This document shows, piece by piece, positions 14,118-37,855 of a stretch of DNA of 42,015 nucleotides. A model generated the notes under the pieces. It saw only the letters and a program-made list of their open reading frames with translations. It ran no database searches and was not told the origin of the DNA. The stretch covers positions 1 to 42,015 of the forward strand of contig NZ_JACIDE010000027.1 in NCBI RefSeq assembly GCF_014196205.1, given 5' to 3'. This DNA comes from Anoxybacteroides voinovskiense. Its GTDB lineage: Bacteria > Bacillota > Bacilli > Bacillales > Anoxybacillaceae. A program made the position numbers and the translations under genes. Position 1 is the first letter of the stretch, and each line of letters opens with the position of its first letter.

Positions 14118-14223
14118 CTCTTATCTCTCAAAGCAAATGCTTTGTGTGAATTGGCACCATTTCAGCTACGCTGACGGTTGCCGGGTTTCATCGGGCACAT
14201 CCCTCCACCTCTCTTGATAAGAG
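14118..14223 (-). ncRNA. SAM-I (S-box) riboswitch aptamer
   Basis: The minus strand carries the S-box consensus in order: CTCTTATCAAGAGAGGTGGA at the 5' side, GCCCGATGAAACCCGGCAACC, written here only as its parts GATGAAACCC and GGCAACC, then ATGGTGCCAATTC, and the closing P1 strand GAGAGATAAGAG. When SAM is high the aptamer forms and the downstream terminator stops transcription before metN; when SAM falls the operon is expressed. It sits about 80 bases upstream of the metN start. Confidence 0.97.
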
Positions 14224-32605: not shown

Positions 32606-32917
32606 TTATGCTTCGACAGAGAGAGCTACTTTGTATGAGAACATCTCGTTTCCAAGCACAAAATCAAGTCGTTCTCTGTCTTTTTGCTCATGCGCCTTGC
32701 GAAACGCCTCACTTTTCGTCCAAGCGATAAAAGAATCTTTATTTTCCCATGTAGTGCACACGCGCACTTCGTCATGGTCTTCAAGCCCCTCTGTTACGAG
32801 TAATTCTAAACGAATAAACCCCGTTGATTGTTCAATTCCTTTTCTTTCTTTAAACCGCTCGACTAGTTGCGGAGCATATCCTTTTTTTACGCGAATCGCA
32901 TTTGTTACTACATACAC
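32606..32917 (-). CDS. IsdG/HmoA-type heme-degrading monooxygenase
   Basis: Small ABM-fold protein of 103 aa. The catalytic triad of IsdG-type heme oxygenases is present at the right spacing: N6 in VVTNAIRV, W66 in FIAWTKSEAF and H76 in RKAHE. Such enzymes open the porphyrin ring of heme and free iron in the cytoplasm. The start is GTG 32917, seven bases after GGAGG. It is the last gene of a six-gene leftward operon with an iron/heme ABC importer, which supports heme as substrate. B. subtilis HmoA/HmoB are the nearest known relatives. Confidence 0.87.
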   Translation of the reverse strand: MYVVTNAIRVKKGYAPQLVERFKERKGIEQSTGFIRLELLVTEGLEDHDEVRVCTTWENKDSFIAWTKSEAFRKAHEQKDRERLDFVLGNEMFSYKVALSVEA

Positions 32918-32944
32918 GGTTATCCCTCCATTTCAGATGTTAGG

Positions 32945-33991
32945 TCATTGCTTAGCTACAGTAAACGCATCTGCACTGACTTTTTGTCCTTTATATGCAA
33001 CAGCGTACACAATAGATTGGTCTTCAGCAGCTGCTGTTACCAATGGAACAGTAATAGTAGCTGCTGTTTTATCCTCGCTCAACACAACGTTTAACGGAGT
33101 TACTTCTGTTTCTGTGCCGCCGTTAATTGTCATCGTAATTTTTATATCATCAACACGAAGAGAGGCAACAGGAATATCAAAATATAACGTAACCGTTCCA
33201 TTGTTTGATTCGACAAAATCTAGTTCTGCCACTGGCGGAGCAATTAATTCATTGTATACTTCTAGTAAATCGTTATATTCTTTCGTCAAATCCGTTTTAA
33301 ACACATTAGAAAGTTTATTCAATAGCGGACGCATGATATCTAACGCTTTTTTCGCCTCTGCTAGTTTCCCTTCCCCTAATGCACCTGTAGCTTGAGACAA
33401 TTGCTTATTCACTGCAACATCGTTCGCATATTGGCTATATAGCGTTTTATTGCTATTCAATTGTTGTAAAAAAACTTTTCGCACGTGTGAGCCATATACT
33501 TTGCTATACAACTTTGCCTGTTTCTCAGTTAAGTAACCGCCTAGCTTCTCATAAGCGCTTTGCAACGCATCTATATCTTCATTTGCGATCGCTTCTTGTA
33601 GTGCTGTTTTCGCTTTTTCGGATGATTCCCACGCGTTGTAAGCATTCATATATGGAACGACGCGTTCTGTAATATATACTTTATAAGCATAGTCCAGCTC
33701 TTTTAAATATTTCGCTTTCATTTTCCCACCGGATTTTTGGACTGCTTTTTTAGCATTTGCATAAAGCGTGTTCGCCTTACTATATTCAACCATAACGGCT
33801 GACTTACTTGGAAGTTTTCCTGTTTTCGCCACTGCATTAACATACGTTGTATACGCTTTTTGCATTTGCATTTTTGCATCATTGACGACTCTTGCTACAT
33901 TTGTCGCTGCTTCAACCGGATTCACGGAAAGTAAAGCAGCGAAAACCATTAGGCACAGCATTGCCAGCTTCATTCCTCGTTTCAAGTTCAT
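32945..33991 (-). CDS. Secreted SbsC-like helical protein
   Basis: Protein of 348 aa with a type I signal peptide (basic head, hydrophobic 8-21, cleavage near VEA-A at 28). Residues about 29-230 are helical and resemble the N-terminal module of the S-layer protein SbsC: NVARVVNDAKMQMQKAY, then a YSKANTLYANAKKAVQKSGG helix and a late ALGEGKLAEAKKALD. In SbsC this module binds the secondary cell wall polymer. Residues 235-348 form a beta-rich Ig-like domain as in S-layer proteins. It is much shorter than SbsC (about 1,100 aa). No transmembrane anchor or sortase motif follows. Its place in a Fur-controlled heme operon, 24 bp after the HugZ-like gene, suggests a surface role in heme or iron capture; that is inference. 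Confidence 0.75.
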   Translation of the reverse strand: MNLKRGMKLAMLCLMVFAALLSVNPVEAATNVARVVNDAKMQMQKAYTTYVNAVAKTGKLPSKSAVMVEYSKANTLYANAKKAVQKSGGKMKAKYLKELDYAYKVYITERVVPYMNAYNAWESSEKAKTALQEAIANEDIDALQSAYEKLGGYLTEKQAKLYSKVYGSHVRKVFLQQLNSNKTLYSQYANDVAVNKQLSQATGALGEGKLAEAKKALDIMRPLLNKLSNVFKTDLTKEYNDLLEVYNELIAPPVAELDFVESNNGTVTLYFDIPVASLRVDDIKITMTINGGTETEVTPLNVVLSEDKTAATITVPLVTAAAEDQSIVYAVAYKGQKVSADAFTVAKQ

Positions 33992-34015
33992 AAAGTAGCG
34001 CTTCTCCCTTCACTC

Positions 34016-34525
34016 TTATATTTTTCCGCCACTTCGGCGCTCGACAACAACATGCGTAAACTGCGTTCCTTGCACATTAACCTCAAACGCTTCGCCAAAT
34101 CCCGCCACGTAACGCCCTGCCACAGGGGTAAGTTTAAATAAATACATATCAATCGTTCGCAACAATCTCATTAGCGCAGAACCGTGAATATGTTCGAATT
34201 TCGCAAAAATGTCACCTTTTCCATCGTTTCCGACACATTCAGTGGTGCATTTAAAACGAACACGCTCTCTTGCAAATAGGTTAGGAGAGTCTTTTTCATC
34301 CGCAAGCATCATCACTGAAATGTAGCTATTGTCTTCGATATAGCGAAAATGCTCCGAAATTTTGCTAATAAAGATATAGAAGTGACCTTCATGAATCACA
34401 AAAGGAGCATAACTAATAAACGGATCGCCACTTTCATCCACTGTACTAATGACCATCGTTTTACATTGATTCAAAAATTGTAGATATTTCTCTCTTTTTG
34501 ATTCTAGACCAAGCTGCTTTTGCAT
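34016..34525 (-). CDS. HugZ-like heme-utilisation protein (PNPOx-like fold)
   Basis: Protein of 169 aa with a pyridoxamine-phosphate-oxidase-like split barrel: MVISTVDESGDPFISYAPF, then FYIFISKISEHFRYI and SPNLFARERVRF. The C-terminal LFKLTPVAGRYVAGFGEAFEV is the HugZ pattern. HugZ-type proteins bind and degrade heme in Helicobacter and Campylobacter. The ATG at 34525 has GGAGGG six bases upstream and is preferred over a longer frame. With an IsdG-type enzyme in the same operon, two heme-handling proteins are encoded together. Confidence 0.8.
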   Translation of the reverse strand: MQKQLGLESKREKYLQFLNQCKTMVISTVDESGDPFISYAPFVIHEGHFYIFISKISEHFRYIEDNSYISVMMLADEKDSPNLFARERVRFKCTTECVGNDGKGDIFAKFEHIHGSALMRLLRTIDMYLFKLTPVAGRYVAGFGEAFEVNVQGTQFTHVVVERRSGGKI

Positions 34526-34560
34526 AACCACCCTCCTCACGCATAATCCCTCTTCTTCAC

Positions 34561-35352
34561 CTATGGAGAAACAACGAAATCTTGTTTTTTTCTAATCGGG
34601 ACGAAAAATGGTTTATGCCTGTCATAATAAATTTCCACATCAATATCAAAAATTTCTTGGAACATTACTTTGCAAATAACTTTTTTCGTATCGCCATCGT
34701 AACGAATATGCCCATCTTTTAGAGCGACAATCCTATCGCTGTATTGAGCTGCTTGATTAATATCGTGAAGCACCATCACAATCGTCATCCCGAATTGTTC
34801 ATTTAACATTTGAACAAGTTCCATTACTTCTAATTGATGGGCAATGTCTAAGTAAGTCGTCGGTTCGTCCAGCAACAATATGTCCGGCCGCTGGGCAATC
34901 GCCATTGCAATCCACGCTCTTTGCCGCTCCCCACCCGATAACGACTGTAAAAATCGATACTCATACGCTTGTAAATTTGTTACTTCTAGCGCCCATTGAA
35001 TGATTCGCTCATCTTCACCATCTAGCGATTGAAACCACCTTTTATGAGGGTTTCTTCCAAACTCCACTAATTCTCTTACCGTAATGTCGATTGTATGGTT
35101 TTGAATTTGCGGAAGCATCGCTAACTTTCGAGCGAGAGCTTTTCGACCTAACGTTTGGATTTCCTTGCCGTCTAATAAAACCGTCCCGACCATCGGTTTG
35201 AGAAGATGAGAGATGATGCGAAGCAGCGTCGATTTTCCCGAACCATTCGGACCAATTAAACTAATAATTTCCCCTCTTTTAATCTCTAAATTTATCTCTT
35301 CAAGTGCAAAAGACTCTGAGTGCCTGTATGAAAGATCGTTAACTAAAAGCAC
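34561..35352 (-). CDS. Iron/heme ABC transporter ATPase (FecE/FepC family)
   Basis: Cytoplasmic ATPase of an iron-chelate or heme importer, 263 aa. Walker A is at 34-42 (GPNGSGKST), Q-loop around PQIQ (81-84), signature LSGGE at 138-142, Walker B from 159 (LLLDEPTTYLD), and the H-loop VLHDINQAAQYSD. GTG start at 35352, seven bases after AGGGGG, overlapping the permease gene by 14 bp. The substrate is not readable from the sequence; neighbours point to heme. Confidence 0.9.
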   Translation of the reverse strand: MLLVNDLSYRHSESFALEEINLEIKRGEIISLIGPNGSGKSTLLRIISHLLKPMVGTVLLDGKEIQTLGRKALARKLAMLPQIQNHTIDITVRELVEFGRNPHKRWFQSLDGEDERIIQWALEVTNLQAYEYRFLQSLSGGERQRAWIAMAIAQRPDILLLDEPTTYLDIAHQLEVMELVQMLNEQFGMTIVMVLHDINQAAQYSDRIVALKDGHIRYDGDTKKVICKVMFQEIFDIDVEIYYDRHKPFFVPIRKKQDFVVSP

Positions 35353-36388
35353 GCATTTTCCCCCTCTTATGGAGAATATATAGAAAGAACGGTCCTCCTA
35401 GAAAAGAAAGTAATAAGCCGACAGGCAATTCAATAGGATCAAACCAACTACGTGCAATCGTATCTGCTAACACAAGAAACATTCCGCCTCCTAACGCAGA
35501 CAATGGCAAAACAAAACGATCATCATTACCAACAATCATTCGCAATATATGCGGAATAACAAGCCCTATAAACCCTATTAATCCAGACACACTGACGGCA
35601 ATACCAGCTAACAACGTACTAACTACAATTAAGAAAAAACGAGAGCGTTCTACATGATGTCCTAATAATTTCGCCACATCATCTCCTAAATGGAGAATCC
35701 GAATATGCTTAATCGCAAAAAGGGATAAAATTAATGCTGGAATCCCATAGGTTAATAGCAATTTCGCTTGATCCATTGTTGCACTGCCAATGACTCCCGC
35801 CATCCACGGAAGCACTGCTTGCACACGGTCACTATAAAGTAGCATAATCGCACTCATGCTGGCGCCGATTACGGCATTGACGGCTACTCCGACTAAAATA
35901 ATTCGCTCAACAGAAGCACCCCCTTGCCATGCCAGTGCATAAATCAGCATCGCTGTCAAAAAACCACCGATAAATGCAGCGATCGGTAATAGCAAAATAT
36001 ATTTTGGCAACAAAATCGTAATAATGACCGCCATCAAAGCAGCGCCTGAAGATACCCCGATGATTCCCGGATCTGCTAGCGGGTTTTTCATTACTCCTTG
36101 CATAATCGTTCCGGAGACAGCTAAACACATCCCCACTATGATTCCTACAATCGTCCGCGGCAGACGCAAATCCCATACAATCGTATGGAGCATGGAATCT
36201 TTTGTCCCCGTAATCCCTTCCCATACTTCCTGAAGGTTTAGTTTCACACTACCGGTAATGACAGAGTATAACGAAACAAACACAATAGATATGAGTAAAA
36301 AAACGAACGCACCTATTCTCCTTTTTCGATAAGGATGTTCTTTTTCTCCTAGTATAATTTCTTCTTTGTTAAGAGGCCTTTCCGCCAT
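35339..36388 (-). CDS. Iron/heme ABC transporter permease (FecCD/BtuC family)
   Basis: Membrane channel subunit, 349 aa. A polar N-terminal stretch of about 24 residues is followed by about ten transmembrane helices. FecCD landmarks: LRLPRTIVGIIVGMCLAVSG near the N-terminus, NPLADPGIIGVSSGAAL, and late GLIGFIGLVIPHILRMIVG with D-R-RFVLP-type end (NDDRFVLPLSALGG). ATG 36388. Only one permease gene is present, so the channel is probably a homodimer, as in BtuC. It is 18 bp after the binding-protein gene. Confidence 0.9.
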   Translation of the reverse strand: MAERPLNKEEIILGEKEHPYRKRRIGAFVFLLISIVFVSLYSVITGSVKLNLQEVWEGITGTKDSMLHTIVWDLRLPRTIVGIIVGMCLAVSGTIMQGVMKNPLADPGIIGVSSGAALMAVIITILLPKYILLLPIAAFIGGFLTAMLIYALAWQGGASVERIILVGVAVNAVIGASMSAIMLLYSDRVQAVLPWMAGVIGSATMDQAKLLLTYGIPALILSLFAIKHIRILHLGDDVAKLLGHHVERSRFFLIVVSTLLAGIAVSVSGLIGFIGLVIPHILRMIVGNDDRFVLPLSALGGGMFLVLADTIARSWFDPIELPVGLLLSFLGGPFFLYILHKRGKMRAFS

Positions 36389-36406
36389 CTTTTGAACCCC
36401 TCTTGC

Positions 36407-37339
36407 TTATTTATTTAGCTTTGCTTTTACTTTTAATAATTCTTTATTCATATAATCTAGCGCTTCCCCGATTTTCGCTCCAGGACTTGCTGCGAATAAT
36501 TCGCTTGGCAAAAAGACGACGCTTTTGTTTTTTACCGCTTTCAAGTTCCGCCAAGAACTTGTAGACATGAGCTTAATCATTGCTTTTTTTGTTTCCGCTG
36601 GATTAGCATGCGTAATAATGAAAATAACATCCGGATTGCTTGCGATAATACGTTCCGTACTTAAATTGGCATACCCAGGGAATTCTTTGATTTGCGAAAA
36701 ACTTGCTGCAATATTTTCGCCGCCAGCTTTCTTCAATACATCACCAGAAAAGGATGTTGGCAACGCCACTAATGAACTGGAACCAGAGCCAAACAAAATG
36801 ACAGCGCGCACTGTTGTTTTTGCTTTACTATATTTCTTTACTTTGCTATTAATCTTTCCAATTAATACTTTCGCTCTTTGTTCTTTATCAAACAATTTTC
36901 CTAATAAAGAAATAGAAGATTTAATATCATCAATTGAACTTCCAGAAGTGATAATGACTTTCAATCCCAATGATTTTGCTTTTTCAACATGTGCTTGAAA
37001 AGCAGTGCCTGCAATGACAACATCCGGTTTAACACTCACAATTTTTTCGAAATTTGGCTGATGAATATTTCCTACTTGCGGAACATCTTTTAAACTTGGA
37101 TCAACCGGAGCCATCGAGGTCGGTCTCCCAACAATAGTAACTCCTAGTGTTTGAAGAGTGTTTAAATCCCCAGGACTTAGGACGACAACTCGCTTAGGGG
37201 CTTTCTCAAACGTCACCGTACGCCCTGCTAAATCTTTTACTGTAACCCCCTTCTCAGCCGCTTCGGTTGGGGAGCTAGAAAAAACAACTAAGCCAACCAA
37301 CAAACATAGTGATAATACCCATGAGAATAATTTTTGCAT
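36407..37339 (-). CDS. Iron/heme-type substrate-binding protein without lipobox
   Basis: Cluster-A-II binding protein (PeriplasmicBP_2, BtuF/FhuD fold), 310 aa, with FEKAPKRVVVLSPGDLNTLQTLG, VGNIHQPNFEKIVSVKPDVVI and a C-terminal helical lobe. The N-terminus is a signal peptide ending in SSSPTEAAEK; the only cysteine (C12) is inside the hydrophobic part and is preceded by LSL, not a lipobox. Gram-positive binding proteins of this class are usually lipoproteins, so this one may be released or held by another protein. ATG 37339 with AAAGGAG at 7. First gene of the operon, behind a promoter with two Fur boxes. Confidence 0.88.
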   Translation of the reverse strand: MQKLFSWVLSLCLLVGLVVFSSSPTEAAEKGVTVKDLAGRTVTFEKAPKRVVVLSPGDLNTLQTLGVTIVGRPTSMAPVDPSLKDVPQVGNIHQPNFEKIVSVKPDVVIAGTAFQAHVEKAKSLGLKVIITSGSSIDDIKSSISLLGKLFDKEQRAKVLIGKINSKVKKYSKAKTTVRAVILFGSGSSSLVALPTSFSGDVLKKAGGENIAASFSQIKEFPGYANLSTERIIASNPDVIFIITHANPAETKKAMIKLMSTSSWRNLKAVKNKSVVFLPSELFAASPGAKIGEALDYMNKELLKVKAKLNK

Positions 37340-37354
37340 ACCGCATCTCCTTTC

Positions 37355-37373
37355 TGATGATTATCATTATCAA
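37355..37373. promoter_or_regulatory. Fur box 2, just after the transcription start
   Basis: Contains TGATTATCATTATCA (37358-37372), a close match to the 19-bp Fur consensus; the minus strand reads GATAATGATAATCATCAG. It lies between the start site and the ribosome binding site of the binding-protein gene. Confidence 0.85.
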
Positions 37374-37384
37374 TTACGTTAAAA

Positions 37385-37414
37385 ATAATAAATGATAATG
37401 AGAATCTTTGTCAA
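37385..37414 (-). promoter_or_regulatory. Sigma-A promoter of the iron/heme operon
   Basis: Minus strand: TTGACA (37414-37409), 18-base spacer, TATTAT (37390-37385). Start near 37378, leader about 40 bases. Confidence 0.78.
37393..37406. promoter_or_regulatory. Fur box 1, inside the promoter spacer
   Basis: TGATAATGAGAATC lies between the -35 and -10 of the iron/heme operon. It resembles repeats of the Fur hexamer GATAAT. Binding would block RNA polymerase. Confidence 0.7.
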
Positions 37415-37488: not shown

Positions 37489-37505
37489 CTTTTACTCACT
37501 CTGTA

Positions 37506-37855
37506 TGGAGACGGTGGGAGTCGAACCCACGTCCAGAGATATCGCCACTTAAGCATCTACGAGCGTAGTCGGTATATTTCACTTTCGCCGCTTCTTCCGC
37601 CTACCGACAGGCCTCCGAGCAGCTAGTCTGATTCGTCTCTTCCCGCATCCTCAGACGGCGGACTTGGGCGTAGCCCACTTGTTATGAACCCCTAGGCCGC
37701 CACATGGGCGATGGCGGTAGGAGCTAGCCGCATTAATTAAGCAGCTAAAGCGTAGTTTTCTTTGCCAGTTATCTTTAGGTGACGTTTTGACGAGGACGGT
37801 CCCCTCGGCTCGCAGCTTAAGCTCGATCTACCCCTGTCGAATCCGTAACGTCCCC
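37506..37855 (-). ncRNA. ssrA: tmRNA (ssrA)
   Basis: Transfer-messenger RNA that with SmpB rescues ribosomes stalled on broken mRNA. The 5' end is GGGGACGTTACGGATTCGAC and the 3' end GGACGTGGGTTCGACTCCCA followed by CCGTCTCCA; these pair as the tRNA-like acceptor and T-arm. The gene is about 350 nt. The base after the discriminator A is T, then AC, so the 3' CCA is not encoded and must be added. The internal frame gives a short tag (separate entry). Promoter and terminator are both clear, so it is its own unit next to smpB. Confidence 0.97.
37737..37766 (-). other. tmRNA proteolysis-tag reading frame
   Basis: Resume codon GGC (37766) starts G-K-E-N-Y-A-L-A-A and a TAA stop (37739-37737). With the alanine carried by tmRNA the tag is AGKENYALAA, 10 residues, shorter than the 15-residue tag of B. 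subtilis and close to the E. coli ending ENYALAA. The LAA end directs products to ClpXP. Confidence 0.9.

Follow-up and report, generated by a model that had tools for sequence, protein, structure and literature searches.

Six genes in a 42,015-nucleotide stretch of Anoxybacteroides voinovskiense DNA (Bacillales, Anoxybacillaceae; contig NZ_JACIDE010000027.1, positions 1 to 42,015; hereafter the window) probably encode a heme import and degradation system of unusual build. In transcript order they specify a substrate-binding protein, a permease, an ATPase, a HugZ-like protein, an SbsC-like secreted protein and an IsdG-like protein. Heme import across the thick Gram-positive wall is understood mainly via relays of NEAT-domain proteins that end at a membrane-bound lipoprotein. 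The locus described here has neither, and it is found in heat-loving, non-pathogenic bacteria amenable to laboratory culture. What is new is that the binding proteins of this clade both lack a lipobox and are cationic, whereas their relatives are lipidated and anionic. We read the operon as an iron-repressed, NEAT-less heme importer and degrader of isd descent, in which wall charge would replace the lipid anchor and the SbsC-like protein would serve as a wall-bound helper. From the sequences we put the probability of this reading at about 0.6.

Loss of the lipobox and reversal of charge

The top match of the binding protein in the PDB is IsdE (2q8p, E-value 1.4e-28). Against the IsdE model TIGR03659 it scores 156 bits, under the cut-off of 298.65. 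In the alignment with IsdE, His93 falls on Met78 and His244 on His229, the two residues that we take to be the heme ligands of IsdE. We aligned 36 orthologues, 11 of this clade and 25 others, and the tree adds three siderophore-type outgroup proteins (39 rows). His244 is kept in 35/36 orthologues (the exception is G162), including all 11 of the clade, and His93 is kept in 9/11 of the clade and 24/25 of the others. Neither histidine is present in the three outgroup proteins.

The preliminary description of this stretch had called the binding protein non-lipidated. This part of it stands. A lipobox is found in none of the 11 clade proteins (the window protein does have a signal peptide) and in all 25 orthologues outside the clade, although that of G389 is visible only from a later start. 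G012, a near-copy of G013, was left out of the 11; its copy and a further G012 fragment are also without a lipobox. In the tree the 11 non-lipidated proteins form one supported group (100/99), whose sister is a lipidated second copy in G383, with long branches and unusual composition flagged for G383 and G325.

The description missed the reversal of charge, as well as its recurrence in two other classes of binding protein (see below). Counting the domain only, net charge lies between +18 and +36 in the clade (11/11) and between −37 and −3 in the lipidated orthologues (25/25). The calculated isoelectric points (pI) are 9.9–10.4 and 4.1–6.1, respectively. The mean number of Glu drops from 26.2 in the lipidated proteins to 7.5 in the clade, and that of Lys rises from 17.3 to 34.5. 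Two glutamates, E98 and E229, are Glu in all 39 rows; these positions presumably dock BtuF-type proteins on the permease. Their retention amid the reversal of charge fits a protein that may still serve the importer but be held differently. A thermophile or genome-wide basic bias was rejected as the cause, since further binding proteins encoded by these genomes are acidic or close to neutral and the SbsC-like protein itself has an acidic tail.

NEAT domains and the SbsC-like gene in relatives

As the preliminary description had it, NEAT domains are absent along with the lipobox. NEAT (PF05031) was found in 0/41 genomes of the family, the window genome included; the named controls of the same search also gave 0/14, and a search across the order, which found NEAT in 20/397 genomes, serves as the positive control. 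A related binding protein, defined at an E-value of 1e-40, occurs in 32/397 genomes of the order. Seven genomes of the order encode the short SbsC-like protein; each also encodes the binding protein, and NEAT occurs in 0/7. Among the 25 binding-protein genomes without the short SbsC-like gene, 16 have NEAT, in 15 of them within 8 kilobases (kb) of the binding-protein gene. The distance in G305 is about 110 kb.

Orthologues of the SbsC-like protein, about 350 amino acids (aa) long, occur in 9/41 genomes of the family, with 48–93% identity in an alignment of eight of the nine. The preliminary description had named a missing SbsC-like gene at this place in relatives as the first result that would tell against it; all nine orthologues in the family lie within the heme operon. 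Across the order, SbsC-type matches were found in 17/397 genomes, seven with the short protein (five of them within the family, the other two being G325 and G383) and ten with only long frames of the surface-layer (S-layer) type. G325 and G383 belong to another family (f22). They carry the same six genes in a divergent arrangement: the HugZ-SbsC pair points away from the remaining four, and each half is preceded by a Fur-box-like site (17/19). That the gene set is the same although its order differs and each half has a Fur site to itself is our strongest indication that the SbsC-like protein belongs to the system. Recurrence of the gene order in relatives makes the operon more than chance. IsdG-type genes accompany the binding protein in all relatives examined except at locus L139.

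The HugZ gene is absent from the operon of G023, which keeps the SbsC-like gene. A strict HugZ-SbsC partnership is ruled out by G023, by G006, by HugZ without SbsC in G284, G305 and G364, and by a second HugZ copy in G383. The HugZ gene of G006 (L031, 9318-9524) is without its middle part, and HugZ seems dispensable there. Stand-alone HugZ-like genes outside the heme operon are found in family f22 (L126, L161; genomes G284, G364 and G305). The other SbsC-type frames among the 25 family matches listed are long and of S-layer type, plus frames of 288 aa (G010) and 480 aa (G033). The last two were rejected as orthologues, with about 34% identity and no heme genes within 3.8 kb (L015) and 8 kb (L082), respectively.

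The SbsC-like protein

The helical, wall-polymer-type module with an immunoglobulin-like (Ig-like) tail that had been proposed for this protein is borne out by the Pfam SbsC domains, an AlphaFold2 model and Foldseek. The model, built from seven sequences, has a mean predicted local distance difference test score (pLDDT) of 87.4, with residues 1–29 below 50. It comprises a signal peptide (about 1–29), some ten helices (about 30–250) and a beta-sandwich, Ig-like tail (about 251–348). SbsC structures 2ra1, 4uj6 and 4uic match the protein by both sequence and fold. They also head the Foldseek list (4uic, E-value 4.7e-20), followed by Ig-like domains of CopC and Sap among mixed weak matches. SbsC itself binds secondary cell wall polymer (PMC12175726). 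The helical module has a calculated pI of 9.0–9.5 in 9/10 orthologues, and this basic module, together with homology, suggests that the SbsC-like protein sits on wall polymer. The tail is acidic, with a calculated pI of 4.1–4.5 in 10/10. The gene is under purifying selection, with ratios of nonsynonymous to synonymous substitution (dN/dS) of 0.29, 0.16, 0.15 and 0.22 in four pairs.

With only about 98 residues beyond the helical module, the protein lacks a lattice-forming S-layer body. The window genome has a separate SbsC-type protein of 1163 aa. The idea that the tail is a common S-layer Ig repeat was rejected, as a hidden Markov model of the tail matched only operon proteins among the open frames of the loci fetched, most S-layer loci being covered over about 3.9 kb, short of their ends. 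The nearest solved S-layer domain is Sap of B. anthracis (E-value 0.28).

Cationic binding proteins outside the heme class

We classed 104 of 200 PF01497 matches, namely all 38 from six genomes and 66 more from the family (26 best-scoring loci and 40 picked by hand, some of them for resembling the non-lipidated proteins). Signal peptides and lipoboxes were assigned by simple rules. A lipobox is present in 77/104, and these proteins have net charges of −16 to +2. A signal peptide without a lipobox was found in 19/104, of which 18 lie at +15 to +32 and one (L269) at −6. The start of L269, in G026, seems out of frame relative to its lipidated relatives L267 and L268, and it may be a disrupted lipoprotein gene. 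The remaining eight have no signal by rule; one of them, L226 (161 aa, pI 11.8), was probably read in the wrong frame. The charge difference has a Mann-Whitney p of 2e-10, ignoring relatedness.

The 18 cationic non-lipidated proteins consist of ten heme proteins, six of siderophore type (Geobacillus and G325) and two of a third class. At the three loci of the second class seen in detail, a secreted Big_6 repeat protein is encoded just behind two permeases, with a small lipoprotein gene intervening in G325; the comparison for this class was made without a close lipidated relative. The third class consists of proteins in G016 (net +24) and G011 (net +26), and lipidated relatives 64–71% identical to the G016 protein lie at −5 to +2. 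In G011, the gene directly downstream of the cationic binding protein encodes a protein with three SLH domains. This binding protein, too, has lipidated relatives at about 65–70% identity, with acidic or nearly neutral charge. No wall protein is encoded near the G016 gene, and no permease near the G016 or the G011 gene. Thus, loss of the lipid and gain of charge go together, and a wall-bound neighbor is frequent but not constant.

Gene content and control of the operon

The preliminary description had proposed a six-gene leftward unit with two Fur boxes in front. The open reading frames (ORFs), the Pfam scores and two sites matching at 16/19 positions confirm this layout (Table 1). Each of the six frames is open and lies on the minus strand. 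The gaps are 18, −14, 35, 24 and 27 base pairs (bp), as described before, provided that the HugZ-like gene starts at ATG 34525. This start is preceded by GAGGAGG and agrees with the MQKQ start of the L126 and L127 homologues. The alternative start, GTG 34540, would make the third gap 20 bp. A transfer-messenger RNA (tmRNA) gene flanks the operon on one side and a GGDEF gene on the opposite strand flanks it on the other.

All six products score above their Pfam cut-offs. Scores against the IsdE, HugZ, HutZ and IsdG-type models of NCBIfam fall short of the equivalog cut-offs, so we treat the proteins as relatives and not as strict members. The HugZ-like protein, for example, scores 122 bits against TIGR04109 (cut-off 240) and is likewise under the cut-off of the HutZ model. 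Its nearest PDB entries are 1vl7 and HutZ (3tgv). Its His163 aligns with the THV of 3swj, the histidine of which we take to be the C-terminal heme ligand of the split-barrel HugZ/HutZ family. The nearest PDB entries to the IsdG-like protein are 8avh and IsdI (2zdp), and its Asn6, Trp66 and His76 align with IsdI; Asn-Trp-His is presumably the catalytic triad of IsdG-type monooxygenases. The path from this gene content to heme import is well supported by what is known of the families. The gene set and the IsdE and IsdG relatives agree with the earlier assignment as a heme locus, and its Fur control finds support at the level of motifs.

For the Fur box we scored with a 19-bp sequence that we assume to be the consensus. 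The two sites ahead of the operon are the two top-scoring matches in the whole window; when the 250-bp region was shuffled 200 times by mononucleotides, the highest score was 14/19. A similar pair stands in 11/11 of the upstream regions examined, at 16–17/19, with the best of 200 shuffles at 14–16. These motifs suggest that the operon is under Fur control. Promoter-like sites are not in excess in the stretch (13 found, 12.6 expected).

Table 1. Features of the operon and of the related loci. Positions are those of the window unless a locus (L) is named.
Feature	Position	Strand	Remarks
IsdE-like substrate-binding protein, 310 aa	36407..37339	−	PF01497 (Peripla_BP_2) 122 bits; signal peptide, no lipobox; net +19; His93, His244
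FecCD-type permease, 349 aa	35339..36388	−	PF01032 325 bits
ATP-binding cassette (ABC) ATPase, 263 aa	34561..35352	−	PF00005 (ABC_tran) 120 bits
HugZ/HutZ-like heme-degrading or heme-handling protein, 169 aa (174 aa from GTG 34540)	34016..34525	−	PF01243 (PNPOx_N) 53 bits
SbsC-like secreted protein, 348 aa	32945..33991	−	PF22360 (SbsC_spectrin-like) 58.8 bits; PF18058 (SbsC_C) 52.5 bits
Acidic Ig-like tail of the SbsC-like protein, Tyr329-xxx-Tyr333	32948..33241	−	from the model; calculated pI 4.2; no Pfam family
IsdG/IsdI-like heme monooxygenase, 103 aa	32606..32917	−	PF03992 (ABM) 65 bits
Sigma-70-like promoter TTGACA-18-TATTAT	37385..37414	−	consensus match only, 11/12, best of the stretch
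Fur-box-like site 1, between the promoter hexamers	37394..37412	−	16/19
Fur-box-like site 2, just ahead of the ribosome binding site	37353..37371	−	16/19
Second-class transporter: non-lipidated cationic siderophore-type binding protein, two permeases, Big_6 protein	L079 6681-8261 + 8215-11161; L274 7664-12144; L204 3943-8599		
Third-class binding protein (net +26) adjoining a three-SLH protein	L273 7160-9298		
tmRNA gene	37503-37855	−	directly upstream of the operon
S-adenosylmethionine (SAM) riboswitch	14118-14223	−	93 bits

In several relatives the operon is also preceded by smpB and a tmRNA gene. The SAM riboswitch is a separate feature elsewhere in the window.

Proposed mechanism and alternative readings

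In the mechanism that we propose, the SbsC-like protein would sit on secondary wall polymer by its helical module. The cationic binding protein, free of a membrane tether, would be held by its charge in the anionic wall zone, perhaps with further hold from contact with the acidic Ig-like tail of the SbsC-like protein, as a docking partner. It would still dock on the permease via the two retained glutamates and deliver heme, and HugZ and IsdG would open the heme ring inside the cell. As partner, the SbsC-like protein may provide a docking site or act as a heme relay.

Several observations weigh against this reading. His93 is replaced by Tyr in G383 and by Phe in G325, and the lipobox was lost in a single event within the heme class. 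The helical module of G023 has a calculated pI of 5.3. The SbsC-like gene has a higher dN/dS than most of its operon neighbors and is the least conserved gene of the operon or among the least conserved, at 42–52% identity beyond the closest relatives. The searches for NEAT and related folds recognized no heme-binding fold in its tail. Nine of the 25 relatives have neither NEAT nor SbsC, which argues that a surface receptor is dispensable. At the loci listed, these nine genomes show no obvious surface receptor in the operon; G016 is an exception in that a Big_6 gene adjoins, but that gene is part of another transporter. The seven SbsC genomes come from only two families, so that the mutual exclusion of NEAT and SbsC is not a set of independent observations. 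Finally, G016 retains the binding protein, permease, ATPase and IsdG with no HugZ or SbsC-like gene in place. Its binding protein is cationic and non-lipidated all the same, so an SbsC-like protein is not needed for holding it.

This last case bears on the alternative that charge alone holds the binding protein in the wall and that the SbsC-like protein serves the wall or S-layer as an iron-regulated accessory, without a direct role in heme transfer. The two other classes of non-lipidated cationic proteins, which have no SbsC-like neighbor, point the same way. However, the SbsC-like gene is linked to heme genes in two families and in two gene orders, and in the split arrangement a separate Fur box precedes the half of the operon that contains it. 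We regard this alternative as rather unlikely. Somewhat better placed, though still unlikely in our view, is a receptor role, in which the tail would bind heme through Tyr329-xxx-Tyr333, function as NEAT domains do but from a wall-polymer anchor, and pass heme to the binding protein. The SbsC-like gene and NEAT are mutually exclusive in the genomes searched, and Tyr329 is conserved in 10/10 orthologues and Tyr333 in 9/10 (Phe in G325), on a long late strand. Heme binding in NEAT domains is by YXXXY on a late strand, in which the second Tyr may be Phe (PMC4143258), and the tyrosine pair of the tail resembles this motif, as a lead only. BslK, which combines SLH and NEAT (see below), would be a precedent. 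Yet the tyrosines may have a structural role, as part of an Ig domain of S-layer type. We identified no SXXXXY helix motif, and the tail has no Pfam family and no conserved His. We considered the tail as a hidden NEAT domain and found no support in Pfam, in a profile comparison (probability 0.5%, no positive control) or in two Foldseek searches, for which the negatives cover the best 50 rows of each list. The model of the tail alone is weak (pLDDT 70.6), and a distant relation to the NEAT fold could escape such searches.

A substrate other than heme b, such as heme c peptides or another tetrapyrrole, is very unlikely. Relatives of HugZ include heme c oxygenases (PMC11442138), and the HugZ-like and IsdE-like proteins score under the equivalog cut-offs. 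On the other hand, IsdE is the best PDB relative of the binding protein, IsdG-type genes go with it in all relatives examined but L139, and the putative ligand histidines are kept. We prefer an isd-derived heme importer whose binding protein would be retained by wall charge with the SbsC-like protein as helper.

The survey raises a wider possibility, to which we give somewhat less than an even chance. Thermophilic Bacillaceae-type bacteria and some relatives may have a second mode of retention, in which lipid-free cationic binding proteins reside in the anionic wall, paired with a wall-bound secreted partner (SbsC-type for heme, Big_6 or SLH for the siderophore type). Charge would have taken the place of the lipid on at least three occasions, and the partner of the heme-binding class would stand in for the NEAT relay. 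So sharp a division, with lipidated proteins anionic and non-lipidated ones cationic, offers a simple rule for lipid-free retention that can be put to the test and is predictive for any genome with such proteins.

Comparison with known systems

We found no publication on this architecture in a search that left the subscription literature largely outside. The operon shares with Isd an IsdE-like binding protein, a FecCD permease, an ATPase, an IsdG-like enzyme and Fur-box-like sites, and related loci in the order adjoin NEAT genes. It differs in that NEAT domains are missing, the surface protein has no sorting signal, the binding protein is cationic and non-lipidated, and a HugZ-like enzyme is added. 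It probably works like an isd-type importer, yet we would not class it as Isd, as the NEAT and lipoprotein features of that system are lacking.

The SbsC-like protein shares the helical N-terminal module of wall-polymer type with SbsC of Geobacillus stearothermophilus, at 27% identity. The latter is a long, lattice-forming protein, whereas the protein described here has 348 aa, a single Ig-like tail and a place in a heme operon that its Fur motifs suggest is iron-controlled. In BslK of Bacillus anthracis, SLH domains are combined with a NEAT domain (PMC4143258, PMC7759979). Like the SbsC-like protein, BslK is a secreted protein of a heme system with a non-covalent wall-polymer-binding part. 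Unlike it, BslK is a known heme binder and is built of SLH and NEAT, in place of an SbsC module with an unrelated Ig-like tail. Given BslK as it is described there, a wall-polymer-anchored heme protein is not wholly unprecedented. Hup and Hmu provide the last comparison. As in those systems, a binding protein, permease and ATPase suffice in the relatives that have no surface receptor. The receptor of Hup and Hmu is a lipoprotein, whereas the receptor here is secreted, non-lipidated and cationic.

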